The notes under the pieces were generated by a model. The model saw nothing but the letters and a program-made list of their open reading frames with translations, was not told the DNA's origin and did not search any database. Below are positions 1,321-22,900 of a DNA stretch of 30,898 bases, piece after piece. Each line of letters opens with the position of its first letter. The first letter of the stretch is position 1. The stretch is from Spirogloea muscicola (Eukaryota; Streptophyta; Zygnematophyceae; Spirogloeales; Spirogloeaceae). The position numbers and the translations under genes were made by a program. Location of the stretch: contig WELB01000046.1 of the NCBI GenBank assembly GCA_009602725.1, positions 720,177 to 751,074 on the forward strand, in the 5' to 3' direction.

Positions 1321-1368
1321 CGAATATTGTCCTTATAAATATCGGAAGCGCGGCCGAATTGACTGGTG

Positions 1369-1560
1369 GCTGGGAGAAGCCAGCCCAAAAGGAATGGACA
1401 AGGTCAAGAGGAGCCGAATGGCGCAGAAAGCAGGGGACTGAAGGCTAAGACGACAAGGAGGCTCTCAGTAACCTCTAGTAAGCAAGTGCAGGTCAGAATA
1501 GCTAGAGGGCGGGAAGACGTCGCCCTGACGAAACCCGGAGGCAGCCGCCAGGCAGCCGCC
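1369..1560 (-). pseudogene. Minus-strand retroelement C-terminal fragment plus tail hairpin
   Basis: Read on the minus strand, 1560 down to 1465 encodes AASGFRQGDVFPPSSYSDLH then LLTRGY and a TGA stop at 1465-1467. The family hairpin (GGGCTGGCTTCTCCCAGCC, 1386-1369 in minus orientation) follows about 80 bases after the stop. The family therefore inserted in both orientations. Confidence 0.6.
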
Positions 1561-1570
1561 TTATAAAGAG

Positions 1571-1629
1571 CTCCCTTCTTTCCATCTGCAACTTACTCCG
1601 ACTTGCGCCTGCTGACCCGGGGTTACTAA
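1571..1629 (+). pseudogene. Retroelement C-terminal scrap (YSDLRLLTRGY-stop)
   Basis: A plus-strand reading ends in TYSDLRLLTRGY with TAA at 1627-1629. It abuts, head to head, the minus-strand copy at 1369-1560 that has a similar end, so the pair forms an imperfect inverted arrangement. Confidence 0.55.
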
Positions 1630-1728
1630 GCTCCAATTTGCTCTAGTCTCGGTGTTGGGTTTAGAGCCTTTCGGCCCTTTGGACCTTGACCATTTTATCT
1701 GGGCTAGCTTTTCGCTGCTTCCATGGTT

Positions 1729-2060
1729 AGCCGGTGGACTTTCCTGCAGCCGGGTTGTTAGCGCAGGTGTACCGGATGCGCTTGGCCGTTTCGCTGCAGA
1801 CGTCCATGGCGCGCGCGCTGCACCTACGCGCCGGCAGAGCCCTCGCTGCTGCCTCTGGCTCTGGCCAGGGGACCCACTTTCAGGAGCCTAGCGTCTCTGA
1901 CCTGAGGCTGCTTAGCAGGGGTTATTGAGTGATACGTAGCTGCTTTGTCTCTTTGTGTGCTTGTTTTTTCTTAGTGCCCCCTGGCCCCGTCTCGTACTTA
2001 GTTCATCCTTTTCTGAGCTGGCTTTTCCAGCCCCTATCCTCAATGGGCGCGCCCTTTCTT
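1729..2060 (+). pseudogene. Retroelement C-terminal fragment with 3' tail and hairpin
   Basis: Bases 1729-1928 encode PVDFPAAGLLAQVYRMRLAV, a region matching 499-600 of the first copy, and then AGRALAAASGSGQGTHFQEP and SVSDLRLLSRGY with a TGA stop at 1926-1928. The copy is 5'-truncated but its end is intact. The tail has the family stem-loop at 2015-2033 (GAGCTGG...CCAGCCC), 87 bases after the stop, followed by CTATCCTCAATGGGCGCGCC. Confidence 0.68.
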
Positions 2061-2630
2061 CTTTTCCACAGCCCCCGCCGCCTCTCGGAAAGAAAGTGGC
2101 TGGTGCACCACTAGGCAAAAGCCAGTGCAAAAGGTGGGGCTACATGAAACGGAGCCCTATGCTAAGGAATGTTTTCGTGTATTTGAAACAAACAAAGGCC
2201 AAATGGCCACGTAAAAGGCAAGTACATCTAGTAACGGGTCCAAGGTAAGATACGAATGCAGGCTGAAAATGGACGTCTGTATCCACGGGCACATATGAAT
2301 CCAGGCTAACTTGGAGGAAGAAACAGCTCATTTAACGTAAGGCAATTGCTATAGAGGCCAGCCCAAGAACTGTACAAGGTCTGAAAGGGCCGGAAGGTGT
2401 AGAACCTTGGGGAGCCGGGGTACCACCAAGAGAGAAGATTCAGCCAGCGAGTCGCACACGCCCTGTGGACGTCGACTTTAACCGCGACAGTAGTAGAATC
2501 AAAGCTAGTTGTCGAAAAGAACAGCACTTCCAGTATACCGTAATGGCTGTGACAGGCCATGCCAATGGAACGTACAAGGCCTGAAAGAGAATTTGCTCGT
2601 CCATGGAAGAAGAGGGGCTAGGAAAGAAGA
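2061..2630. other. Repeat-derived spacer, no gene seen
   Basis: No coding stretch with recognisable similarity is visible. Bases 2355-2400 carry a degenerate minus-orientation tail motif (GGCCAGCCCAAGAA followed by a GGTCTGAAAGGGCCGG word that recurs at 2960-2980). Confidence 0.4.
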
Positions 2631-2639
2631 AAATGCTCG

Positions 2640-2860
2640 CCCATTGAGGATAGGGGCTGGGAAAACCAGCCCAAAAAAGACTGAACAAAGTACGAGAAGG
2701 GGGCCAGGGGAAGCGCTAAGAAAAGCAAGCACAAAAGAAACAAAGCAGCTACGAATTACTCAGTAACCCCTGCTAAGCAGCCGCAGATCAGAGATACTAG
2801 GCTCCTGGAAGTGGGTCCCCTGGCCAGAGCTGCCTAGCAAAGCCAGCCAGAAAAGAATGG
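2640..2860 (-). pseudogene. Minus-strand retroelement C-terminal fragment with tail hairpin
   Basis: On the minus strand the frame ends SSGQGTHFQEPSISDLRLLS then RGY, with the stop at 2762-2760. A perfect 7-bp stem-loop (GGGCTGG/CCAGCCC at 2654-2672) lies 88 bases downstream, followed by CTATCCTCAATGGGCGAGC at 2653-2635. Apart from orientation this closely matches the plus-strand copy ending at 1928. Confidence 0.68.
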
Positions 2861-3017
2861 TCAATATCCAAAGGCCACGAAAGAGGTGCCAACAAGAAAA
2901 TTCTACACAAGCAGAGACGAGATGATGCCGATGGAAGCTCAGTACCCACGAGAGGGCAAAGGCCTGAAAGGGCCGGATGGCGTAAGAGCAGGATACTCTA
3001 GGTCTCCAAGGCGTCAG

Positions 3018-3600
3018 CAAGAGATGCTCCATGACCTCTGTCAGCAAGTGCAAATCAGAATAAGTAGAGGGCGTGTTGGGGAGGGAAAGACTCTTCCAGT
3101 AGAGGGCGATGATTGGCTAGCCGAGACAAGGAATGGACAACGCTCGGAAAGCCAGAACAGCGCTAAAGCACACAGTGACTCGAGTGGCCACTAGGTGGCC
3201 AATATCCCCTGTTGAGCAGCCGCAGGTCAGAGAAACTAGTCTCCGGGTTGCGGGTCCCGTCTATGGGCGAGCACTTTCTCTATAGCCAGAGGCTGCAGCC
3301 AAAGCGGCGCGACCAGCACGTAGACGCAGCGCGTGTGAAAATGACCGTTCCAGCGACTCATCAGTCCGTCTCTAACAAGCAGTGTACTGGCCTGCAGTGG
3401 CCTCCCTCTAACAAGAATGTGCTCGCCCATAGAGAAGAGTGGCTGGCAAAGCCAGCCCAAGAAGTATGGACAATATCCCAAGCCAAAGAAAGAGGAGCCG
3501 AAAGAACTACACTACAGTCCATGCCTTTTGGACTAGGACGAAGACAGCAGCCAGAGGACGCTCAGTAACCTCTAGTCAGGAACCTCTAACAAGCAGTGAA
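3018..3600 (-). repeat. Cluster of minus-strand retroelement tails
   Basis: Several minus-strand ends are stacked here. One, around 3075-3020, has YSDLHLLTE in place of LLTRGY. Another, around 3265-3205, has FSDLRLLNRGY but with TGG where the stop should be. A doubled CTAGAGGTTACTGA/TTAGAGGTTCCTGA lies at 3600-3564. A perfect 7-bp hairpin (GGCTGGC, AAA, GCCAGCC) is at 3441-3457. Repeated CTCTAACAAG words occur at 3369, 3402 and 3586. No complete open element remains. This nest ends where the host gene begins. Confidence 0.55.
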
Positions 3601-3607
3601 CTGTCTT

Positions 3608-3650
3608 TGCAGTGGCCTCTTCAGTCCATGCGAACAGCGCGCCTTTCCGC
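3608..3650 (+). promoter_or_regulatory. ATGCG box upstream of the MOM1-like gene (repeat copy)
   Basis: GCAGTGGCCTCTTCAGTCC is followed by ATGCGAACAGCGCGCCTTTC. It is a diverged copy of the box found at 1251, 19540, 28838, 29168 and 29529. It lies about 145 bases before the chosen start codon at 3773, at the left edge of a GC-rich island. If transcribed, its ATG opens a reading frame (MRTARLSAITPSALAAP...) that overlaps the main start out of frame. A 5'UTR or promoter role is inference from position only. Confidence 0.4.
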
Positions 3651-3772
3651 CATCACCCCCTCGGCCTTGGCCGCACCATGCCGGCGCGGCCCCGCCGCGG
3701 CCTCGACGCCGCCGCCGCCGCCGCCGCTGCGCTTCGACAAGGCGGCGCCGCAGAGCCCTCGGGAGGGGCGGC

Positions 3773-6700
3773 ATGGTCGGCGGCTGGCTGGACCCCGACG
3801 TGGACGAGGGCTCGGAGGACGACGACGAGGAGGACTACGTCCCCGACGAGGGCGGCGGCGGCTGGCTCTGGCTGGCGAGCTCCAGCCCGCACGTCGGGGG
3901 GAAGGCAGCTGCGATCTCATCCAAGGACTTGCTTGCGAGCAGCTCGCCTCAGAGCGCCGGTGCTCCGCTCCCGCCGGCCAAGGCCTCAGGGCTGCCTGAT
4001 GGCAGCTCTGCGCAGCAGCTTGAGGCGTCCAACGGCAACGAGATCACTGCCACGTGCAAAACCTGTCCCCAAGGTCGCAGCGGCGACGACGAAGCGCCGA
4101 TGCTTCTTGAGGTGGAGGTGCCACAGAGCCTCGAGTTGAGCAAGAAGCGGAAGCGGGTCAACGGAGGAGGCGACGGTCACCTGGTCCGACAGCCTAGCTC
4201 AGCTTGCCCCCGGAGTCTAGCAGGCAAATACTGTGCCGTTGCATCAGAAGCAGCCGTAAACCCCTTCACCTTGTTGTCTTTGGGCAGACGACAAAGTACT
4301 GGAGATCGAGTTTGGCAAGCTGTTTGTCGTCTAGAAGTAGGGATTTGTGGCACGGCAGTCATGCTGACGTTATAAGAACCTGTGTGGACAGGTGAGTGAC
4401 AGTAATCAAGCCGTTGGCTCAAGAAGCACCGTCGGTGATAAGGTGCAGGTCAGCGATCATGGTCGTAACGTGGTGGATGTTGTAGCACAAGTGGGAGATA
4501 TTTCACCAGCCACAGCCAATGGTGGACAGTTGCCTAACACAGAACTGGAGCCAACGGATGCACAAAGGGTAGAAAGGACACCGCAACAACATCCAAATAG
4601 CATGCAGGCAGATATTCTGTCGCTTGAACACGCCCCAGTGGCCTCCCAGGTCAATGAGCAAGAACTAGTCAAAAGCAGTGATGCAGAGGCCGGTGAGAGG
4701 CGCTCGCGTGACGAGGTCATTGGAGGCGACGAAAGACAAGTGGATGACTCCGAGCTGCGGAGGAGGAAGAGCAAGATGCTGTGGCAAGTGCTGCTCCGGC
4801 AGGTGGACCTGAACAAGCTGCAGAAGAAGCTTGAGGTGGGCATCCTAGTCGAGCAGGCTGTTCCTGTACCTTTGGGGAAACATCCAGAATGCATGGACAG
4901 GAGCTGTCCACCTCACTTCTTCTCGTGGAGTAGGGAAAAGGGGAAACTTGCTGGAGAAGAGAGATATACAGTCAGCGTCAGCAATCTTAGTACTACAGAA
5001 CAATGCATGTCTTTGATACGCACCAGGCTGTGCTCGTTGGTCGGGATCAACAGGAGTACTGGCTTAAGCTGATACCCATCGTTTCTGATCCAGGAGCTCC
5101 CTACAGTACTTGAGGATACGCCTCCTGGGCTTATTCACATGGACAGTCCACGCAAGGAGGAGGAAGGCGAGGATGAGATACTAGATACAGAAGAGGAGGC
5201 CGAAGACCTCTCATACCCACCAACTTTCGTCCACAATGAACGCTGTGAGGCATGCTCAACCAGGGGGGAGCTCTTGTAAGTCGTATGCTGCCCTTCTGTT
5301 TGTGGACTTGTTGCCAATCTCTACTTAAGACGGGAGGGCAGGGGCAGCATTACACACCAAGAAGACCTATCCTGTATGCATGCCCTTCCTGCCCTCGATG
5401 ACTACGGCTTGCTCCAAGACCGTAGCTGGCTATAATCACCAATTACCAATGTTTGGCATATAGCAGGAGTGAAGATGGGCCAGGGAGGAGGTTGTATGAT
5501 CGGAGCATTTAACTTTGACCGGTGTTCGTGAGATTGTTGCTGACTATGATTTGTGGCACATTCTGGCAGACTGTGTGATGGAGCAGGCTGCACAATCACA
5601 TACCACCTAACGTGCTGCACTCCTCCTTGGGACGAAGTTCCCTTTGGCAACTGGTATTGTCCAGAATGCGCTTACAAGAGGATAAAGGAGGGCGTGGATG
5701 TTGTCGCCTCCACAGTTGAGTCTATTTGGGGCATGAGAAGCAATCGCCGTGGCCTGCCTCTCAAACTGCTGCCTAGTCCCAGCAAGCCAAAAGACACCTC
5801 ACTCCTGATTGAGATGGAGGACTTACTGCTCTTTCACTTCAGCATGCTACCTGGAGCACTTTCAGAAGAGGTGAGGACAGGACCAAGTAACTCGGACCCA
5901 GCATGGGTTGGTGAAGGCATCTCCAATGGCCAACAAAGTGAAGCAGAGTACTTTGTGAAGTGGGCGGGTGCCTCTCACTGCCACAACTCATGGCTGAAGG
6001 AGAGTGAGGTGCTTTTTGCCCCTCAAGGTGCCCGGGTGCTTGCAGCCTTTAAGAAGCTCTGGGCCGGCGGCAAGGTGAACTAGTAAATACCTTCCACTAT
6101 TGTTCTCTCCTTACTGTGTTAGGTGCTTCCTGCAGTGGAAGCATCACATCACGCCTCCTCTCTGTTTGTAGCTTGCTGTCTTCCAATATCACAGTAAGGG
6201 TTTGTGAGACAATTCTATCAAAGTCAACATACGCGAGCAAGTTTAGCATTGTGGAAGAGGCCCTGCAGCACTCAGCTTCAACTCGCCACACTGTTGGGTG
6301 CAGGTGAAAAAGTGGAAGGATTTGTGGACCAAGCCCCAAAGATTGCTACGCAGCAAGGAGATAATGCCCCCAATATACTCCCCATCTAGGCGGCTGAGCA
6401 GTGGTCGTATGAGGCGGCAGGCTGCCTCGTCTACAATTGGCAAGGAGTGGTGAGGTGCTTATGTACTGCCAGATCGGTTTGCACTCTGTATAGACAGTCA
6501 TGTATTGTTGGTCTCCAGGGCTACTTGTCATACCACCAGAGCAGCAGTCAGCTCTGCAGCTGCTGCTCACTTAGCAAACAGGTTTCTTGACTACTAACAG
6601 CATTCGGCCTTCACGTGGCTTGCGCATCTATTTTGCTCGCAGCTTGGTCTAATAGTTGTGCATATTGGCAAGAAGGCACTCTTCACTAGAGTATTACAGC

Positions 6701-9700
6701 TGTTGTGGGGTGCAGTCTCTTACAAGGGCATGTGTGCTTTCCCTCACATGGTGCAGTCTGTCAAGAAACACACCCATAAGAAGATGTAGCAGCAGGTGCT
6801 TTGTGAGTCGGGGTACTGATTGTGATCTTGAGAGAAAAAGAGCCTACTGATAGACCAAGCCAAGATTGCTCTCACTGCAGGCTTGTCAAGTGGAGGGGTT
6901 TGCCTTACTCTTGCTGCACATGGGAGCCTTCAAATGAGGAAACGTTGGCAACTGCTGAAGCTCTCACCCTGCAAAGCCACCTTCAAAGTCGTCACCTGAT
7001 ATATCAGAGTCGACTTGATCCAAGCAAGGCTGCCGAGGTGCGACTCAGACGACCATGGAAGTTGCCTTCATATGTGCCAAACATAAATGTATTATCATTC
7101 TTAAATCATTCAGCCTTCCCCAAAGCATCTCAAGTACGACTTGCAGCTTCTGTGGCTCAGGTTGAGGCCAAGCGAAAGGGTGAGCCCAGCATGAGCGTGC
7201 AACTCCCTAAAGGACTACAGAGTTTGGGAGCAAAGAGCATGTCTTATCAGGTGGACTGCCTTAATTGGCTCATATCTCGGTGGAAGTCAGCAGACGACCA
7301 CGCTCTCACTTCCTTCTCTCATGGCCTGGTGCGTCTCCCATGGCCAATCCCTTCTGTCGTTGTATGGAGATTGGCATTGGTAGTAGGAGATAGGCCTTAG
7401 GAACAACGCCATTCTTCATCCTGCACTTTAGCAGCTGCTGTGTTTGAAAACAGACATGCCAGGAAGACCCTGGTGCCTAACATGTCAGGCACCTGCGCCG
7501 TGTGCGGAGTGTATGATTTCAAGATTGCTTGTTGTCTGCTAGGGGAGGAGATTTGCTACCATATTATTTCTAGAAGTTGTTCTTCAACAATACCAGATGC
7601 CACGCGCAGTCCTCATCATCGGTGAAGCCTCATGCCTCTTTAGATGGGAGGCACAATTGGAGCACTTTCTCCCTGATGTGAACACTGTACATCTCAAAGG
7701 GGGCAAGGCAAGCAGGAACCTTATTGTCAAGGAAGAGCTTGGGCCCAATCCCACTATTGCTCAGTGCGTTCTAGCTTCACCAGAAGTCATCAACAAGGTG
7801 TGCGTTGCTTGCTGAGATTGAGCATCAGTGGCGCCCACTGATGCATGAAATTTGGCACAGCTCACCTTATGGGGTATTCTAATTCGCGTGAGCGTTGAGA
7901 TGCTTGCTTTTGTAGGTCCTCTCCTGCAGTTCGAGATAGGGAGCATGTGCAGGCAGTGACGTGCTATGATGAACTGCTTCAGAGAGGGCTGCCTTTGACC
8001 TGCAAGGAATGCTCGTGGGCTTTGCAGGAGTTAGACTTTTTCGTAAAGGAGAATTGGGGCATCATCGTACTAGAAAGTCCTGGTTGGGCTTCTGTGCCAG
8101 TAAAACCCTTGGGTTCATTTTCGCAGCTACATGCAGATTTTCGACTTGCGCTGTCAGAAAGACCACTTGCAGTAAGCTTTTCACACACTGGCCAGCTGTA
8201 TAATTTTAATTTCAAGAGCAAAGCTTGGGTGTTGATACTTAAAAATACAGTAGAATACACACCTACATTTGAGTTCCACGCAGATGCTTCAGCATGAATG
8301 TGTTGTTGAGTACAAAACACTAGTTGCCATTCAAGATCGAAGTTCTAATTGTCAGTAGCCCTTCAATTGAGATATTCAGTGCTTGTCCAATTTTGCTGAT
8401 GCTCATCATATATGAGGTGCCGTGCATCCTGCACACGGTACCATCACATTGACAGCCATTGTCCTTACAAAACACAGGATCAGCCAGAGGCCAGTGCCAG
8501 ATTTCTCCTCCACTTCATGAACCCCAGCAAATATAGTTTGGAGGAGCAGGCAGAGGGTTGGAGCCCAGCAGAGACGAGCTTGAAGAAAGTGACTGCCCGG
8601 GTGGAGAAGAGAGAGCACAAGGCGGTCAAGGTAGTGGAGATGTGGTTGCCTGTGGACATGCGCAGCATTCAGAAGGAGTACTACAGGTAAAACAGGGCAA
8701 TCATGCACTTGCCCGAGCTGCCCATCTGAGAAGTCAGAATGTTCTTCTGTAGCCAGATGAGACCTGAGCTTGCATTTCTTGCTCCTTGCTCTGGCACGTC
8801 ATGAGCTCCTCTTCGGGCTTAGTGAGACATGTGATATATAGCTGACCTGAGTTGGCCTCTAGAACCATTTCACCTGAGCACAATTTGGTGCCGTTGCATA
8901 GGGCAATCTTGCGGAGTCAAGCAGGCCTTTTGATGTCTGGCAAGCAGCAGTTGGAGAGTGGAGGAGTCACTCTGCAAGATGTTATTGCTCAGCTTCGTAT
9001 GGTGAGGACAGGGCGGTCTACTCTCCCTTGACTTGGTGCAATCTGCAAAGGCCAAGCAGCGAGTATGCCTTAAGCTGCAAGAAAGCCATGTGTTGTCTGA
9101 CAGTGTTGCGACCACGCATCCTTGGTGGCGGGAACAACCAGGATGCAGTGGGCCCTGCAGCTGGCAGATGAGTCCAGTGGCAAGCTGCAGGTGCTTCAGC
9201 ACCTCCTCAACCACTTTTGTCAGTTGGAAGAGAAGGTTGTCCTTCTTTACCAGGTACCTCCCTTTCTACCCAACTTCTACTCAAGGTTGTTATTGACAAT
9301 ATTAGCGAAGATACGCTGCTTACATTCAGCTGCTAAGGTCTGGATATTGTGGAGAATGTATATTGAGTATACTTTCTTTGCTCCTTTTGGTGTTCGCTGG
9401 AGGGCTTGTGGTGCTGTATTCTATGCTGATTTCATACTGCTGAGGGATGGTTGTACAGCTCAGTCACCTGCAGTGTCTATCACGTGTGCTGTCAGCACGA
9501 TTGAGCCAAGTTACTCAGTTGATGGCTCGCTTGTCACTTGACTGTGTTGGTGCCACCCTGTTGGGCTTTGCAAGGTGCATGCTATGGGAGCCATTCTTGA
9601 AGACAAATTCCTTAGGCGGGCAAAATTTAGTTACACCTTCATTGACAGTGCAAACACCATCGGAGTCAAATTGGCACAAGTTGCGGAGTTTAACACCTGG

Positions 9701-12700
9701 ACTTCAGGCGTGATAGTGATGACCCCACAAGATCTAGATATCTCAATGGACATTGCCACTATCAGTGTTGTCATAGTTTACGACCACAATTGGGACCCTC
9801 TGCTTGACCTGCAGGTCAGCCACTCGACTGGCCTTTCCTCTGGTCTTAGATAAAGCTTCAGCTTTAGATTCCCAACTGCAAGCGTCTAGAGGTTTGCTGA
9901 GTCTGCGGGCACAGGGGTTTCTTTCCAAATGGAGTCCATTGTATCTTGCATATGTCAAGGTTTTGTCAGTTGGTCGTCAATGGGAGTTGCTGATTTCTCC
10001 TCACAAAGCCCCCGGAGGATGGACAATCCTCACTGTTGTCTTATCTTACTAGTGGCACATGTAGGCCTCACAAGATCCTTCTTGCCTGGTCATCATACAG
10101 GCGCTTGAAAGACCAGCGAGATTTGGCATGGCTGGTCAGCCCCTGCAAGTTTACCGCCTGTTCACCAGACACTCGGTGGAGCAGCAGTGTTTCCAGCGCT
10201 ACCATGCAGCAGCCAGGGACGGCAGCACGAACAATCTCGGCAATTTTGTAGGCCCTACTGGCATCCCGTATGACACGAAGGAGGCGCCACAGCCATGCGA
10301 ATTAGTCAGAGAGTGTCAGGAAATACTTACAGGAGGGGCTGTACAGCAATTTAGTGACAACAGGTTGGCAGAAAGCCCGCAACAGGGAGAAGCCAAGCTG
10401 GTGGAGGAAATGGTCATCCGTTTGCATGCGGAGATGGTCGAAGCTTGTGGCCAGTCTCCAAGCCAGAGTGGGAGAGAAGTACTACTCTTTGGTGGTGACA
10501 ACAACGTGGAGGACGTCGAAACCTCAGGGCAACAGAGCAAGGCAAACAGGGCCTCGGGCCGTGACACAGGTGAGCAGGGTGACACTCAGAGCCCCTGGAA
10601 GTGGGTCTGGACGGACATACTCAGTGGACCTAAGAGGCAGGAGGATAGAGAGGAGAGCAGGAGTCCTGGACCTGGAGAAGCTCGCGCTCAGGAGACTCCG
10701 CAGGAGGACAGAGGTAGTCCCTTGGACCATGTTCAGCATAGTTTGGAGGTAATGGATGTCCCGACTACCATCTCAGCTTCCTACGATGCTGCACAATCGT
10801 CGGAGAGGCCTAGTTCTTGCGAGCAGGTCAGCGTCACTGGAGAGCTCGAGGTGCCACAGCCTGCAGAAGGCGCTGTCAACATCGCAGAACCTGCAGGCGG
10901 GTCCGGCCCCAGTCAGAAGCTTGCGGAGCCTGGGGAGCAGCCCAAACAAGCAGAAACTGTGAGCGGTGGTGCGGAGGACTTGGGAAGACCTGAGAGCCAT
11001 CAGCAGGTGACTCAAAGCCCAGAGCCGGAAGCTCAGCAACTTGCACCAGATGCGCAGAAGGATAACTCACAGCAGGACAAGGTTCTGGAAAATGGTAACA
11101 AGTTTCTGCTCCCCCCAGAGCCTGAGCAGCCACAGCTTGGAGGCAAAGAAAGCGCTAGGAGGGCTGCCCCACCTGCGGCAGAGCACTCTTCAGAGGTGCA
11201 TCTCGAAAGTCCAAGGGCTGCTGCTGTTGCCACAGGGGATGACGTTGAGGGAGAAGCACATGAAGTACGAGAAGGTGGCCACAGTGCGCAACTAGTGGCA
11301 TTGGACCAGGGTGGTGAGGGGAATCAAGTTCGTGCTGATAGTGTGCAGCAAGCTTCTCGAGAAGCTGAGCCTCGAGAACAAGTAGCACCTGAAGTAGCTG
11401 GAAGCCAAGCTGAAGCAGAAGATGACATCATCCGCGTCATAAGGAGCGAGTTGAAGCAGGCTTGCCGTTTACTCGAACTATCTGTAAGCTCCTGCTCTGT
11501 CGGCCTTTCTGTCTCTGTCAGGTCACTGTTGCCAAGTTGCAAGGCACAACAAGTGTGAGGGAGACGAGGAGTGTAAGGGGGCTGCTGAGATCAGTAGGCT
11601 TTGTGTTATTTGCAGGACAAGGTAGAGAAAGGGGCTTTGGAGGCATTTGTGGTCTTGACCAGCAGATACCGGCTAAAGAAGCGGACAGTGGTGGCCATGA
11701 TTAGCACCGTTTTGACCCTGGTACATTCTCTCTTATGCCAATGTTGTGTTGTAACAGTCAATCAAGAATGTCTGTCAAAGTCTTGCAGTATGTGCTTGTC
11801 TGGCGAACTGGTCCAGATTCAATGCCAATGCTTGCAGGACATTCACATGCACCATCTTTACCCTGCCTCTGTGAACCCCTCTGGCAGTGTCGCATCTCAG
11901 CAGAGCGCGAGCTGGTAGTCTTTGATTTCCAGGACTGGCTGGACCGTGTTGCAAAGCACAAGGATGTACGTGTGCCGCGCCATAAACTGGATGGTATATA
12001 CCAGAGGCTCGTCCGCACGCTGAGTTCACTCACGAACAACACGATTGACTCAACTCAATCACCCACTCCGCCAGAATCAGCTCCCACTGGCCGACCACAA
12101 TCTGATCAAGCCCAGGTGGATCAGCTATCCAAGCCCCCGTTGGCAGGAACTAGCGGACCGCTTCTTCAGGAGCACTTGGGTGTCGACGACTTCAGTACTG
12201 CAGCCGCCGACGAACCAGATGCCGTGTTGACCAGTGGCGCTCAGGACCCCGACCTTCCGCTAGCGCCCAGCCTCTTCAACCTCTCCATGCCTTCTGTCTC
12301 GAATGACTCGCTGGACCAGATTGCAAGGACTCCGGATCAGGGTGCTGCAAGCGAGCCTGTGCAGGCGCTACAGCCAGCACCAGAGATGCTGGATCATTTG
12401 ACAGATGCCACTAGCACTAGGGGGCTGCAAAGTACTCGAGCGCTAGCCAATGAAAGCCAGCCAGACCGGCCACCCTGCTCTCAATCCCGGAGCCCCGTAG
12501 AGGACCTGCAAGAGTGGCAGGCACATGACACACGGTCGCTTAGGCAGAGGCAGCAGCAGGAGTCGCAAAACCTGCAGCTCCGGCTTGAGAGTGCAATGGA
12601 TGCGCTGGACCGGCGGCTGGCGATGGAGGTCATGCAGCAGGTGGCAGCGGGCTACCCGTTAGACAAGCAGGAGATCGAGCAGCGCCAGCGCACGGCAGCC

Positions 12701-14274
12701 CGACTGATGTTGGTGCAGCAACATGCAGCGATCAGAAAGCAGCACGCATTGTTGATGCAGGAGGCTCGGGAGGCGCTGCGCCGGCAGCACCGCGAGCAGC
12801 AGCGCCAGCTGGCGTTCCAGCAACGGCGATCGAACGGCAGTGCCGAGGGGGCCACGGAGCCGTGCGCTGCCCTGCCAGCACCGGTAGCAGCCGCCGCGCC
12901 TGGGCAGGAGCCCAACTCCCAGCAGCGGCAGGTGGACATGTCGGGCCGCATCCAGGGAACTGGGCCTCAGCTGCAGGAGCTCGCCGAGGTTCTAGACCCT
13001 GCTCCGGCGCCGGCACTGAGGGAGGCCGCGACGGCAGCGGCCGAGCGCCCTCTGCGGCCTCTGATCCCTGCCAGGCCACCGCCGTCAGAAGGGATGCCAG
13101 AAGTGCTAGAGCGCTTGATCTCTGGGCAGGCCCAGCAGGCTGCAACATCACAGCTGCCGGCCCAACCACAGCGGGGCGCCAGCCATGGCTATGTCCGTGA
13201 CCAGGTGCTGCTGAGGGAGGCTGCTGCGCTTGCCAGGGGCTTGCAGCAGCAGCTGGGACGCCGTCAACTGACACCGTTGCCGCCTGGCCAGCCCTCACAG
13301 CAGCAGCCGCCTGTCGCCCAGGCCAGCCAGCCCCGCCAGTCGGTGGCGACGGCATCGGGCCAGCCTGTGGTCGTTCCACAGGCGCAGGCAGCGGTGCAGG
13401 CGCCGTCGGTGCTCCAAGCAACCCCGGCGGAGCAGCCGTCAGCACAAGCTTATGGGCCGCAGGCACTGCCGGCAATGCAGGCATCAGCAACGCCTCAAGC
13501 CCTCCCAGCTGCCCCGCCTTCGGCTGTGCCGCAAGGCAGCGACCAGCCGGGGAGCGACTTGCCTATGCTTCCGTTGCAGCTGGAGGCTCAGGGCAGTGCT
13601 GAGATGTATCCGCAGCCGGCCATGGCCGCGCTTCTTCAGCAAGTCGCGCCATCCGGGCAAGCCGAGGATGGGGAGCGAGTGTTGCCGGCGCCCACCATGG
13701 CGGCAGTCCCGCAAGGTCCTACCATAGAGTCGGGGAGCGCGGTCGATCAGATGATGGAACCGGTCTTCCTTCAGCCAGCTGACTTGCTCTCTGCTCAGAT
13801 CACGAGCCCCTTTGCTGCAGAGGAGTTGCGGCTCAAGATCAAGCTCAACTCCATCAACAACAAGTACAAGGTTACCGTAAGTACTCGACCCCCCACTTTT
13901 GATAATAATTCGAGAGCGGCAGGAGGTGTTCCTTAAGTTCCGGTAACTGAACCGTAGGATTCGGTATTAGTAGGAGCACTAAGCCCACTGCTTGGCAAGT
14001 GGAGGCAGCAGCTCTTTGGCATTCTCTGATCTGCTGGCCCAATCATCTCTGGGTGCAGTCCGCAAATACCATTGCGGAGTACGAGCAAGAAGCCAGCAGG
14101 TTACGGCAGCTATATCAAACCAAGCTGCACGACCTTAACAATGCAAGGCTGGGTCAAACACAGCTGGTCCTCGACATGCGGCATGTCTTGATGTCCAACC
14201 AACACCTTGCGGATGCAATGAAGAGCAAGTCCTCTTGGGACCAAGTAGGAGCTGAGAGCTTGCCAAGAATATAG
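3773..14274 (+). CDS. MOM1/CHD3-like protein: PHD finger, tandem chromodomains, degenerate SNF2 helicase, Q-rich region, C-terminal coiled coil
   Basis: Exons inferred by phase: 3773-4175, ~4392-4835, 5094-5275, 5570-6074, 6304-6449, 6881-7328, 7543-7797, 8028-8171, 8478-8686, 8902-9001, 9104-9253, 9575-9814, 10101-11483, 11616-11720, 11789-13876, 14059-14274, giving about 2,340 residues. Domain order: acidic N terminus (VDEGSEDDDEEDYVPDEGG); a KKRKR basic patch; a C4HC3 PHD finger split by an intron (CEACSTRGELL / LCDGAGC...WYCPEC); chromodomain 1 (EYFVKWAGASHCHNSW); chromodomain 2 (WLVKWRGLPYSCCTWEP); an SNF2-like core. Motif I reads GLGRRFA instead of GLGKTIQ, motif II LESP instead of DEAH, the GTP motif reads SERP, and motif VI lacks its arginine pattern. 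CCDHASLV, SSGKLQVLQHLL and YDHNWDPLLDLQ keep the fold. A Q/A/P-rich helical region and a terminal coiled coil (VLMSNQHLADAMKSK) resemble the MOM1 C-terminal motif. Likely a catalytically dead nuclear chromatin scaffold in gene silencing. The start and the exon 1-2 join (possible small exon 4287-4324) are uncertain. Confidence 0.78.
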
Positions 14275-16690: not shown

Positions 16691-17586
16691 TGCTGACAAT
16701 GACGTCGTCGCCGTCCTCATCGTCGGCGTCACCAGCTTCCACCAAGGAGGCGTGGTGCGGCGGCGGCGGCGGCGGCGGAGCCACGACGGCGATGAGGGCG
16801 TCTGCAGGAGGAGGAGGCAACGTGGGGGGTTTGGGACTTGAACCCTGATCCCCAGACGCCGACGCTCCTGCCCTATGCGGCGCTGGCGCCGGCGCTGACC
16901 TCCGTCGGAGAAGCTGAGGGGCTGGCCGTCGGGCAGGACGCCGCCGCGGCGCACGAGCTTGAGGCGCTCCGGCGGCAGGCCGGCGGCCGCGCCCACCAGC
17001 GCGCGAGCGGCNNNNNNNNNNNNNNNNNNNNNNNNNNNNNNNNNNNNNNNNNNNNNNNNNNNNNNNNNNNNNNNNNNNNNNNNNNNNNNNNNNNNNNNNN
17101 NNNNNNNNNNNNNNNNNNNNNNNNNNNNNNNNNNNNNNNNNNNNNNNNNNNNNNNNNNNNNNNNNNNNNNNNNNNNNNNNNNNNNNNNNNNNNNNNNNNN
17201 NNNNNNNNNNNNNNNNNNNNNNNNNNNNNNNNNNNNNNNNNNNNNNNNNNNNNNNNNNNNNNNNNNNNNNNNNNNNNNNNNNNNNNNNNNNNNNNNNNNN
17301 NNNNNNNNNNNNNNNNNNNNNNNNNNNNNNNNNNNNNNNNNNNNNNNNNNNNNNNNNNNNNNNNNNNNNNNNNNNNNNNNNNNNNNNNNNNNNNNNNNNC
17401 GCGCCGCCGCCGCCCGCGGCGGCCGCGCCCGGTGGCGGCGGGCTCGGGCAGCTGTCGCTCGAGCAGCTCCGCCAGGTGTGCGACGAGCCCCGAGGCCCCC
17501 GAGAATCCAAGCCCCTCCTGGCGCGAGCCCCCGGAAGTCTCGAGCCCCCGTCCTTCGACGTGTAGCCTGAAGTCGTTGTACGCCAT
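16659..17586 (-). CDS. Ubiquitin-like-domain protein, interrupted by an assembly gap
   Basis: On the minus strand a candidate ATG at 17586-17584 starts MAYNDFRLHVEGRGLETSGG, followed by LVAHLAELLERQLPEP. The sequence is then lost in the N run 17012-17399. After the gap, 17011-16900 encodes the second half of a ubiquitin fold (LVGAAAGLPPERLKLVRRGG, VLPDGQPLSFSDG). A 98-base intron (16899-16802, GT-AG, with a CTCCTCCTCCTGCAG acceptor) joins it to DALIAVVAPPPPPPPHHASL. The joined SFSDGDALIAVVAP fits the last strand of a ubiquitin-like domain. An acidic tail (EAGDADDEDGDD) follows, and the frame stops at 16659-16661 after LNPNPIPNP, which is encoded by telomere-like repeats. The C-terminal glycines for conjugation are not seen, so this is a domain rather than a modifier. 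More exons may exist. The frame across the gap cannot be verified and the family is not identified. Confidence 0.55.
17012..17399. other. Assembly gap (388 N)
   Basis: An unbroken run of N within very GC-rich sequence (CGCCGCCGCC on the right edge). It removes the middle of the UBL gene and possibly promoter sequence for the prefoldin gene. Its true length is unknown. Confidence 0.95.
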
Positions 17587-19968: not shown

Positions 19969-22900
19969 ATGGGGAATGGCAAAGCCAACCCCCGGGTGTT
20001 CTTCGACGTCACCATCGGCGGCGACAAGGCCGGCCGCGTGGTCATGGAGGTCAGTGCCCCGCCCTGCTCCCAATGGTGCCTGGGCCGCCAAGCTCCAGCC
20101 GGCTCTCGCAAAGCGCTGGGCGACCACCAGGCTGGCACTGGAGTGGACGCCGCTCGTTAGAGCAGGCTTCACCTTGTTTCGCCTATCGTTAGCGTCTGAA
20201 GATTAGCGTCTGAAGAGCACTACAAGGAGAGAGCAGCTCCCCTGCCAGAAGTGCCATTCCACACAGTGCCTCACAGTGCTCTGTGTAGCTCCGAAGGCCT
20301 GTTACGATGCTACGGCGCAGGACTTGCCCGTTGTTCATCCAAGGCTGCTGTCGGAGAGAATCTTTAGAAGCTCGCTCAAAAGGGGCCAGCCAACATTCGG
20401 TTTCCCATGTCAGCTTTCATCACTAACCTTGGGAAGGGGGCTGGTTGTTGCAGCTCTTTGCAGACGTCGTCCCCAGGACCGCTGAGAACTTCCGAGCTCT
20501 CTGCACAGGTGTGCTGTCAAGCCATTGCGACTACTACTCGCAGCTTGGCTATGGGGCATGAAGTTAGCTAAACCCCAGGGCTTAGGCGGCCAGCAGTCAT
20601 CAGGGGACGTTTAAGTTGCCCTGTGATCATGCATCAATGGCTTGCAGCTTCATTGACCAGCCAAGCTCTAAGTGATGCTGCTGACGCTGTCAAGCTCAAA
20701 ACTCTGACAGCTATTGAGCCTGTATCAGACGCGGTAGGTGCACCACGTAGATGCACCAAGTCTTGAAGGGTTTGATGAGGGTTTGCTGTAATATCCTGTC
20801 GACCTGAGTTGCACTTCTTGGCGCAGGGGAGAAAGGCACGGGCAAGGTGACAGGGAAGCTGCTGCACTTCAAAGGCTCTACTGTTCATCGTGTCATTCCT
20901 GGCTTCATGGCTCAGGTGAGACCACGAGCTCGTCCCTGACAACCACTACACTTGAAGGAGGTGCTGCATCGATATTACAGAATACTTGGCTGTCACTGTA
21001 CGGCAGCCACAGACAGTCACACACCGATCCGCAAATTGAGGATCATGTGCACGAACTTTTATAATGTGTCTTCTTGGGTCCAGTGCTGCGCTGCTGGACC
21101 CAAGACAGCTGCACAGACTGACGTGCCAATGCGTAACAGACTGTACCCTAAGAAGATGTTGGGCATCAAGTCTGTCGAGCTGAGGTGGTTGTCCTTGATC
21201 ATGTTGCATGACATAGGGAGGCGACTTCACCAATAAGGATGGTGAGTGCTGCGGAGCATGAGAGTGGGCCACTTCTTTTGCGTTACAGCCCACGGAGTTG
21301 CTGCTTCCCTTGCTCAGGCAAATGAAGGTCATCTAGACATGTGTACAGGGGTCCTATAGCACTCCCTTGTTTGATGTTTGTTGGGAATGATTGCCAGGAA
21401 CATAGGGATGACGAGCCCTAAATTGTTGCAGTCGTTGTCGACTTTCAGGCACTGGTGGCGAATGCATATACGGGGGCAAATTTGCAGGCACAATCATCTT
21501 CCTAAACTGCTCAGCACAACTTGCATGGATTGCACTCATTTGTACACAGGGTTTTGTAGGAAGCAGACCTCTCCTATGCCACTGTGAAGCCTAGAACATG
21601 TCTGGAGTCTGTTCTGAGAACTGCCAGAGCGGGCTTCCGTTTCACGTGCATGATTGTGCAGTTGAGAGTTCCATGTGTGAATGCTCGCCATTCTCATTGC
21701 TCACTGAGCTGTTTACAGACGAGAACTTCAAACTCAAGCACGACGGGCCTGGGGTTCTCTCAATGGCAAATGCTGGTCCAAATACCAATGGATCCCAGTT
21801 TTTCATCACGTTCAAATCAACGCCACACTTGGATGGGTGCGTTTCTAGCACTTGCCCAGACACGTGAGGGCTTGCCCATGTTGGCGCTCTCTATGGCTGA
21901 TGCACCCCAATTTACCTGTACAGCACCAGGATACAGGGGAAGCATATTGTCCATGTACTATTATCTTCAGTAACACAGAGTGGACCAGTGCATCATTGTT
22001 CTCTGCTGTGCACCAGCAAGATGACGAGTCATGTTGATCCTTTGCTGGTTTTCTGGCTGGTCATTGAATGTTTCATGCTGCCCCCTGCTTTGAACAGGAA
22101 GCACGTTGTTTTTGGAAAGGTGCTTGAGGGGATGGACGTTGTACGCAAGATGGAGGCCTCACCAACAGGCCAAAGGGACAAGCCTGTCTTGCCGATCAGA
22201 ATTGCAAACAGCGGAGTCCTCGAGGAAAGTGACCTTGCAAAGGGCAAGATCGACAAGGCTGAGGACAAGAAGGACAAGAAGGAAAAGAAGAGACCCAGAG
22301 AGGATGCTGGTGATGGAGAGGGCTCCAGAAAGACTGCCAAGAAGGATAAGAATGCCAAGAAGAAGGAGAAGGTCAAGAAGAAGAGGTCCAAGTACGCATC
22401 GGAGTCAGAGTCCTACTCAGAGTCTGATTCTGCATCCTACTCGACCTCGGAGTCATCCTCCTACACGTCCAGCTCTGACTACTCCTCAGAGTCCGGTAGT
22501 GAGAGTGATTCCAGCGAGATAGAACAACGTGAGGCTAGGAAAGGGGGCAGATCAAAAGGCTCGAAAGGAAACACCAAGACGCTTCCCAGCAAGAGAAGCG
22601 CCACCGAGCCCGAGAAGAGGAAGAGGTGAGTGCTTGTCCAGAACTTTCAGGGCCACCTTGTGACCATGGAGCCTGCTTGCAACCGTGGCGCCTGCATGTG
22701 CATCTATAGTACGCACACGACAGTGCACAGATGGCTGGCTAAAGGCAGCTAGGAATTTTGCGTGCTGCCCAGTCAATGTACGTGCCAAGTAAGCCTGCCT
22801 GCTGGTGTGCGCTCCATCCATATCCTCAGGTTCCGTCATTAGACTAGGATGGGTGTTGGTTGAGCACGATGGAACTCCTGAATTCTGCTTTGCCTTGTTG

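Follow-up and report, generated by a model that had tools for sequence, protein, structure and literature searches.

Is the silencing factor MOM1 as young as the vascular plants, or is it older than the land plants altogether? CMM2, a hendecad coiled-coil region of MOM1, and MOM1 itself have been concluded to have appeared with vascular plants (PMC2507757). The question is reopened by a gene on the forward strand of a stretch of 30,898 nucleotides (the window) from contig WELB01000046.1 of Spirogloea muscicola, positions 720,177 to 751,074. Its spliced reading frame is open from an ATG at 3773 to a stop codon at 14272-14274, over 17 exons and 2,296 codons. We found that this gene very likely encodes a MOM1 protein of this zygnematophycean alga, derived from a CHD3 remodeller by duplication and dead as an ATPase. 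The initial annotation of the window had placed a MOM1-like gene at 5094-14274; its end and MOM1-like identity held, and the real start lies about 1.3 kb further upstream. It had also reasoned that a non-vascular host would bear on the age of MOM1, which applies here, S. muscicola being a zygnematophyte alga.

The gene model was predicted by reading the sequence, with stop-to-stop open reading frames (ORFs) and splice sites, and was then corrected by two further genomic copies. Searching the genome (153 Mb in 471 contigs) with the protein located them on contig C47, starting near 735 kb, and on contig C66, starting near 628 kb. Compared with the window gene, they gave 28 exon-level protein matches of 59-98% identity, 18 of which reached at least 85%. 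Across the gene, both are 86-89% identical to the window gene in DNA, and they have its exons and nearly all of its splice sites in common. All 16 introns of the window gene are GT..AG. When its boundaries are carried over, C47 retains GT..AG at 31 of its 32 intron ends and C66 at all 32, provided that the first copy is used of a donor that is duplicated after exon 15. A first model, without exon 1 and with the intron 7038-7160 still read as exon, served for the Pfam scan of spliced pieces and for the genome protein search; the final model served for the copy comparison, the PF25029 comparison of the three copies, the ratios of nonsynonymous to synonymous substitution (dN/dS), the CMM2 tests, the motif scan and the CHD4/CHD5 search of the PDB. 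A DNA-level search of the genome returned no gene copies; its 35 matches, spread across many contigs, were just ends of a dispersed repeat, which lies at about 3647-3830, upstream of and into the first-exon region.

The front part of the protein points to CHD3. A PHD finger (amino acids 327-370; 5244-5669, split by the intron 5276-5569) with its Cys and His ligands present is followed by the cores of chromodomain 1 (amino acids 462-500; 5943-6059) and chromodomain 2 (amino acids 551-590; 6439-6989, split by the intron 6450-6880) and then by SNF2, the predicted order being that of CHD3. In the Pfam check of the spliced first half, PHD scored 27.5 bits, Chromo 48.9 bits in two stretches, SNF2-rel_dom 45.3 bits over profile positions 1-289 of 290, and Helicase_C 27.0 bits over positions 2-110 of 110; the PHD finger, two chromodomains and SNF2-like core of the initial annotation were all matched. 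The best PDB match of the PHD and chromodomain half was CHD4 (4.5e-21), then CHD5, with CHD1 later (1.2e-11). This ranking suits a CHD3 ancestry better than a CHD1 one, in agreement with the CHD3-derived origin proposed earlier. The best PDB relatives of the SNF2 half were the ISWI and CHD1 ATPases. DUF1087 (PF06465), a mark of CHD subfamily II, was not among the nine families reported at E up to 1 in the spliced 1,071-amino-acid piece.

What would make this CHD3-like protein a MOM1 lies behind the SNF2 part. The MOM1-like domain PF25029 is predicted at about amino acids 1505-1621 (11415-12064, split by two introns). In the window copy it scored 28.5 bits (E 1.4e-6) in a 136-amino-acid piece and 26.8 bits in a 115-amino-acid piece, against a cut-off of 27; this score is not fully independent, since the choice of 11888 as acceptor of exon 16, which open frame and phase permit, was partly guided by MOM1 sequence. 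C47 and C66 gave 31.2 and 29.9 bits, and the E values across all three copies ranged from 2.1e-7 to 5e-6. The domain, absent from the initial annotation, is the stronger signal of MOM1 identity, and its recognition in three of three copies supports membership of the MOM1 lineage. Judged from position alone, it is probably the published CMM1. Searched across the whole genome, the PF25029 profile gave no match, nor did any control; introns interrupt the domain.

The second MOM1 feature is the C-terminal coiled coil (amino acids 2214-2282; 13841-14229, split by the intron 13877-14058). We compared the last 105 residues with the 76 CMM2 residues of 3VEM. The window copy reached a local score of 59, whereas shuffles averaged 26.8 (standard deviation 4.9) and none of 2,000 shuffles of either sequence reached 59; when the tails of C47 and C66 were shuffled, 0 and 1 of 2,000 reached the score. 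The reversed sequence scored 33. An ungapped diagonal of 51 residues, with 11 identities, scored 48; elsewhere in the protein no place scored above 12. For the last 80 residues, shuffles that keep the hydrophobic/polar pattern reached the score in 0, 1 and 2 of 3,000 cases (window, C47, C66). The Arabidopsis CMM2 positions 1765, 1769, 1772, 1776, 1780 and 1783 (spacing 4-3-4-4-3) are hydrophobic in both proteins, Ala counted. Of the tip residues N1799, I1802 and L1806, which were mutated in a 2012 study (PMC3276543), I1802 corresponds to Met and the other two both to His in the algal protein. We regard homology of the algal coil to CMM2 as likely, short of proof; the likeness to the MOM1 coiled coil noted earlier stands as a similarity that several tests find weak.

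The SNF2 part carries changes that make ATP hydrolysis very unlikely. At the Walker A position (amino acids 661-666; 7323-7554, split by the intron 7329-7542), where the phmmer alignment sets GLGRR against GLGKT of ISW1, the protein reads GLGRRF. End-to-end Pfam matching and spacing put LESP at the DEAH position (motif II, amino acids 800-803; 8070-8081) and SERP, within LSERP, at the TGTP position (motif III, amino acids 827-831; 8151-8165); the phmmer alignment skips this region. Motif V has lost its glycines. GLGRR and LESP are identical in all three copies, so the intact motifs I and II that would mark a CHD3 remodeller appear to be missing from each, and motif III reads SERP, SEKP and SEKP. 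The CHD3 gene on contig C107 of the same genome, read as a control, has GLGKT, DEGH and TGTP. With Arg in place of the Walker Lys in three of three copies, catalysis has very probably been lost while the reader domains were kept, as was suspected from the first. The broader statement that every catalytic motif is altered was borne out, GLGRR, LESP and LSERP included, but not every catalytic residue is lost: LESP retains the Glu of DEAH, and motif VI (QALERPARFGMA, amino acids 1066-1077; 9812-10133, split by the intron 9815-10100) keeps both arginines.

The dead helicase part is nevertheless under purifying selection. We calculated dN/dS by the Nei-Gojobori method for the three pairs of copies, with codons containing gaps or stops excluded and 300 bootstrap draws. 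SNF2 lobe 1 gave 0.25, 0.18 and 0.22 (widest interval 0.09-0.46) and lobe 2 gave 0.18, 0.11 and 0.16 (widest interval 0.03-0.39), whereas the linkers gave 0.78, 0.65 and 1.13 (residues 1111-1500) and 0.55, 0.71 and 0.53 (residues 1626-2150); the helicase part is thus conserved as protein, unlike the linkers. Values were 0.47, 0.41 and 0.39 for the N-terminal part, 0.17, 0.24 and 0.28 for the PHD region, 0.31, 0.54 and 0.69 for the chromodomain 1 region, 0.64, 0.21 and 0.23 for chromodomain 2, 0.30, 0.33 and 0.27 for the MOM1 domain, and 0.32, 0.12 and 0.06 for the C-terminal coil. The intervals of the small domains are wide because dS is only 0.06-0.29.

How might such a protein work? In Arabidopsis, CMM2 dimerises and binds PIAL1 and PIAL2, and MOM1 acts with MORC6 and RNA-directed DNA methylation (RdDM) (PMC3276543, PMC10338684); PIAL has been reported in Mesotaenium and in Spirogloea itself (PMC11371177). 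On the strength of the CMM2-PIAL binding and of PIALs in Zygnematophyceae we propose an ATPase-dead, chromatin-reading scaffold. A duplicated CHD3 remodeller would have kept its PHD finger, two chromodomains and whole SNF2 fold, in a protein that carries PF25029 and the CMM2-like coil. The PHD finger and chromodomains would hold the protein on chromatin, where the dead SNF2 fold may serve as an ATP-independent clamp on nucleosomes or DNA; the C-terminal coil would dimerise and dock partners of the PIAL type of SUMO ligase. Such an assembly could keep repeats and transposons silent.

Several observations weigh against the MOM1 assignment or the scaffold built on it. The SNF2, PHD and chromodomain parts of Arabidopsis MOM1 have been described as dispensable for silencing (PMC2507757), and PIAL is said to occur sporadically among chlorophytes and streptophytes (PMC11371177). 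Motif VI, as ERPARFGM, retains both arginines of SRAHRIGQ. Two of the three copies have a possible defect in exon 9. The dN/dS intervals extend to 1 or beyond for chromodomain 1 in every pair and, between the window copy and C47, also for chromodomain 2, the coil and the MOM1 domain. PF25029 narrowly clears its cut-off in the window copy and, with the shorter piece, narrowly misses it. As for the coil, hhalign against CMM2 gave P 0.0039 and a probability of 8.6%, phmmer of the C terminus against the PDB returned nothing up to E 10, BLASTP of the C terminus against CMM2 produced no alignment, and when five residue classes were kept in place, 56, 58 and 42 of 3,000 shuffles reached the score (window, C47, C66). 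The low hhalign probability and the phmmer and BLASTP results would suit a CHD3 paralogue of the alga that degenerated independently, is no orthologue of MOM1 and has its C-terminal coil by chance; so would the CHD3-like reader half, and a second plant CHD3, At5g44800, has also been reported with SNF2 changes (PMC2507757). We consider this origin unlikely. A domain named after MOM1 stands between SNF2 and the C terminus in all three copies, the coil is located in the very C-terminal part, and the alga's CHD3 on C107 has DUF1087 (24.3 bits, cut-off 22.8), PF25029 not being found in the 20 of 119 listed ORFs scanned there, in which introns could hide it.

That the gene is a decaying pseudogene, be it of MOM1 or of CHD3, is a good deal less probable. 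Possible early decay is seen in C66, which has one in-frame stop, in exon 9, and in C47, where the acceptor of exon 9 is TG instead of AG in a frame that is open throughout. On the other side, the window copy is open across its whole length, the SNF2 ratios stay at 0.11-0.25, and gap positions between copies number 5-11 per kb in exons vs 60-106 per kb in introns. Least probable of all is an active CHD3 misread by us, with GLGKT and DEAH concealed by an overlooked exon or a sequence error: the model was computed from genomic DNA and the three-copy comparison, but GLGRR and LESP stand in three copies on different contigs. When all three genes were scanned in six frames for GxGK[TS], DE[AGS]H, TGTP and a motif VI consensus, there was none of the alternative exons that, by the initial annotation, would overturn its reading by restoring the motifs; the sole match, a GLGKT in the window copy's linker, is off frame and due to chance.

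The reading as a CHD3-derived, ATPase-dead MOM1 bears on the age of the family. Finding the ancestral MOM1 layout in a zygnematophyte implies an origin at least as early as the ancestor common to Zygnematophyceae and land plants, and on this evidence MOM1 looks older than land plants. No MOM1 was found in Physcomitrella or Chlamydomonas (PMC2507757); with the gene in a zygnematophyte, its absence from the moss looks like loss. A wider scenario is conceivable, although we hold it to be somewhat short of probable: a MOM1-PIAL silencing platform would have arisen earlier than land plants, no later than in the ancestor that embryophytes share with Zygnematophyceae, would have been lost in Physcomitrella, and would first have worked through an ATP-independent SNF2 fold that selection maintains, without, or before, dependence on RdDM based on RNA polymerase V (Pol V). 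On the polymerases the sources conflict: no NRPD1/E1 was found in streptophyte algae by PMC7994812, whereas PMC10991848 places it in Klebsormidiophyceae and Charophyceae. DUF3223, taken as a mark of the largest subunit of Pol IV/V, had no match in the genome, which is uninformative, no control having matched. The partner PIAL has been reported in the same algal group as the MOM1-like gene (PMC11371177). Since selection maintains the dead helicase here, the alga offers a way to test what a CHD3 fold without catalysis does in silencing, possibly independently of Pol V.

In the final model, the exons run as follows, all on the forward strand. Exon 1 (3773-4156) has the start codon, an acidic N terminus and a KKRKR end, a possible nuclear localization signal; its ATG, frame and donor are common to the three copies, and the choice of donor was aided by an insertion in C66 directly behind it. 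Intron 1 of C66 holds a telomere-like insertion of the CCCTAAA type, about 42 bases long. Exon 2 (4392-4835) comes from the three-copy splice comparison. Exon 3 (5094-5275) encodes an acidic stretch and the first part of the PHD finger, exon 4 (5570-6074) the rest of it and chromodomain 1, exon 5 (6304-6449) the region between the chromodomains and the first residues of the second, and exon 6 (6881-7037) chromodomain 2. SNF2 lobe 1 starts in exon 7 (7161-7328); exon 8 (7543-7799) holds motif Ia and, split across exons 7 and 8, motif I (GLGRRF), and exon 9 (7916-8171) motifs II and III. Exons 10 (8478-8686) and 11 (8902-9001) belong to SNF2, as does exon 12 (9104-9253), where lobe 2 starts, and exon 13 (9575-9814) holds Helicase_C motifs IV and V. 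Exon 14 (10101-11483) comprises motif VI, a long linker and the first residues of the MOM1-like domain, exon 15 (11616-11720) a further part of that domain, exon 16 (11888-13876) its remainder, a Gln/Pro/Ala-rich linker and the start of the coiled coil, and exon 17 (14059-14274) the CMM2-like coiled coil and the stop codon.

Some boundaries were tried and rejected. Reading 6881-7328 as a single exon leaves C47 and C66 both with an in-frame TGA, from which the intron 7038-7160 was inferred; the splicing read earlier had missed this intron. A coding exon at 9456-9574 was dropped, as joining 9253 to 9575 gives a continuous match across motif IV. For exon 16, the acceptor 11901 breaks the frame, and 11906 was considered by eye alone; 11888 was preferred, being in phase 0 and common to the three copies.

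Elsewhere in the window, the forward strand encodes at 21595-22626 a prolyl isomerase of the cyclophilin type (PF00160), its tail rich in Lys and Ser, and a run of N at 17012-17399, perhaps a gap, falls in GC-rich sequence where both strands have open frames. In the genome at large, WRKY gave 25 exon-level matches, and numbers in seed plants are far above that. Dynein_heavy had no match, nor did any control; the lack of a dynein heavy chain fits a group without flagella. Among the best 150 of 509 candidates, the chromodomain search of the genome yielded what are apparently retroelement chromodomains. A search for rbcL found none, as expected of a nuclear assembly. On C139, at about 888-1387 on the minus strand, an 18S ribosomal RNA gene carries a group I intron (RF00028, 40.9 bits, E 8.2e-9, below the Rfam cut-off of 50) between GTAACAAGGT and TTCCGTAGG, a site where an intron is typical of Zygnematophyceae. 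A second 18S copy, on C33 at about 1357-3030, is without the intron at the 3' site and is interrupted elsewhere by foreign sequence, in which Rfam found nothing; a third is on C264. By eye, genes recur in threes: the MOM1-like gene, the CHD3 gene (C107, C3 and C56) and GRAS. Among streptophyte algae, S. muscicola is described as alone in having undergone such an event, a genome triplication (PMC11712027).

How does the algal protein compare with known systems? Its domain layout is already known, and what is new is the host, a known family in an unexpected lineage. We found no published report of an algal MOM1 (streptophyte and green algae and bryophytes were covered, in literature that leaves out most subscription journals and in the parts of papers available). 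Poplar PtMOM1 has a PHD finger, chromodomains and full SNF2, Selaginella SmMOM1 is said to share the features of PtMOM1, and rice MOM1 has full SNF2 (Caikovski et al. 2008, PMC2507757). Like the algal protein, PtMOM1 and SmMOM1 thus combine a PHD finger, a double chromodomain and a full-length SNF2 with substituted conserved residues, followed by MOM1 motifs; the likeness is drawn from the published description, at the level of features and not residue by residue. They differ in their hosts, vascular plants as opposed to an alga, and purifying selection on SNF2 is demonstrated for the algal gene. Because poplar and Selaginella MOM1 keep the PHD finger and chromodomains, the label "intermediate" given to the algal gene at the outset is not needed, and its arrangement seems better called the ancestral layout.

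With CHD3, PICKLE and Mi-2 (CHD4) the algal protein shares the order of PHD finger, double chromodomain and SNF2, and it differs from them in that the catalytic residues are gone, DUF1087 was not found and a MOM1 domain is added. The alga's own CHD3 genes have a chromodomain and an SNF2 lobe 1 that are 28-29% identical to the MOM1-like query. The C107 copy, the one that was read, has a PHD-like ending by eye and departs from the MOM1-like gene in its intact GLGKT, DEGH and TGTP and in its DUF1087. Arabidopsis MOM1 (At1g08060; 3VEM) shares with the algal protein a degenerate SNF2 and probably the coil in the C-terminal part, which is CMM2-like in the alga (11 of 51 residues identical in the ungapped core), but has lost the PHD finger, the chromodomains and part of SNF2 (PMC2507757). 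Silencing in Arabidopsis persists when the SNF2 part that remains there is deleted (PMC2507757); the algal SNF2 fold, by contrast, has been conserved by selection.

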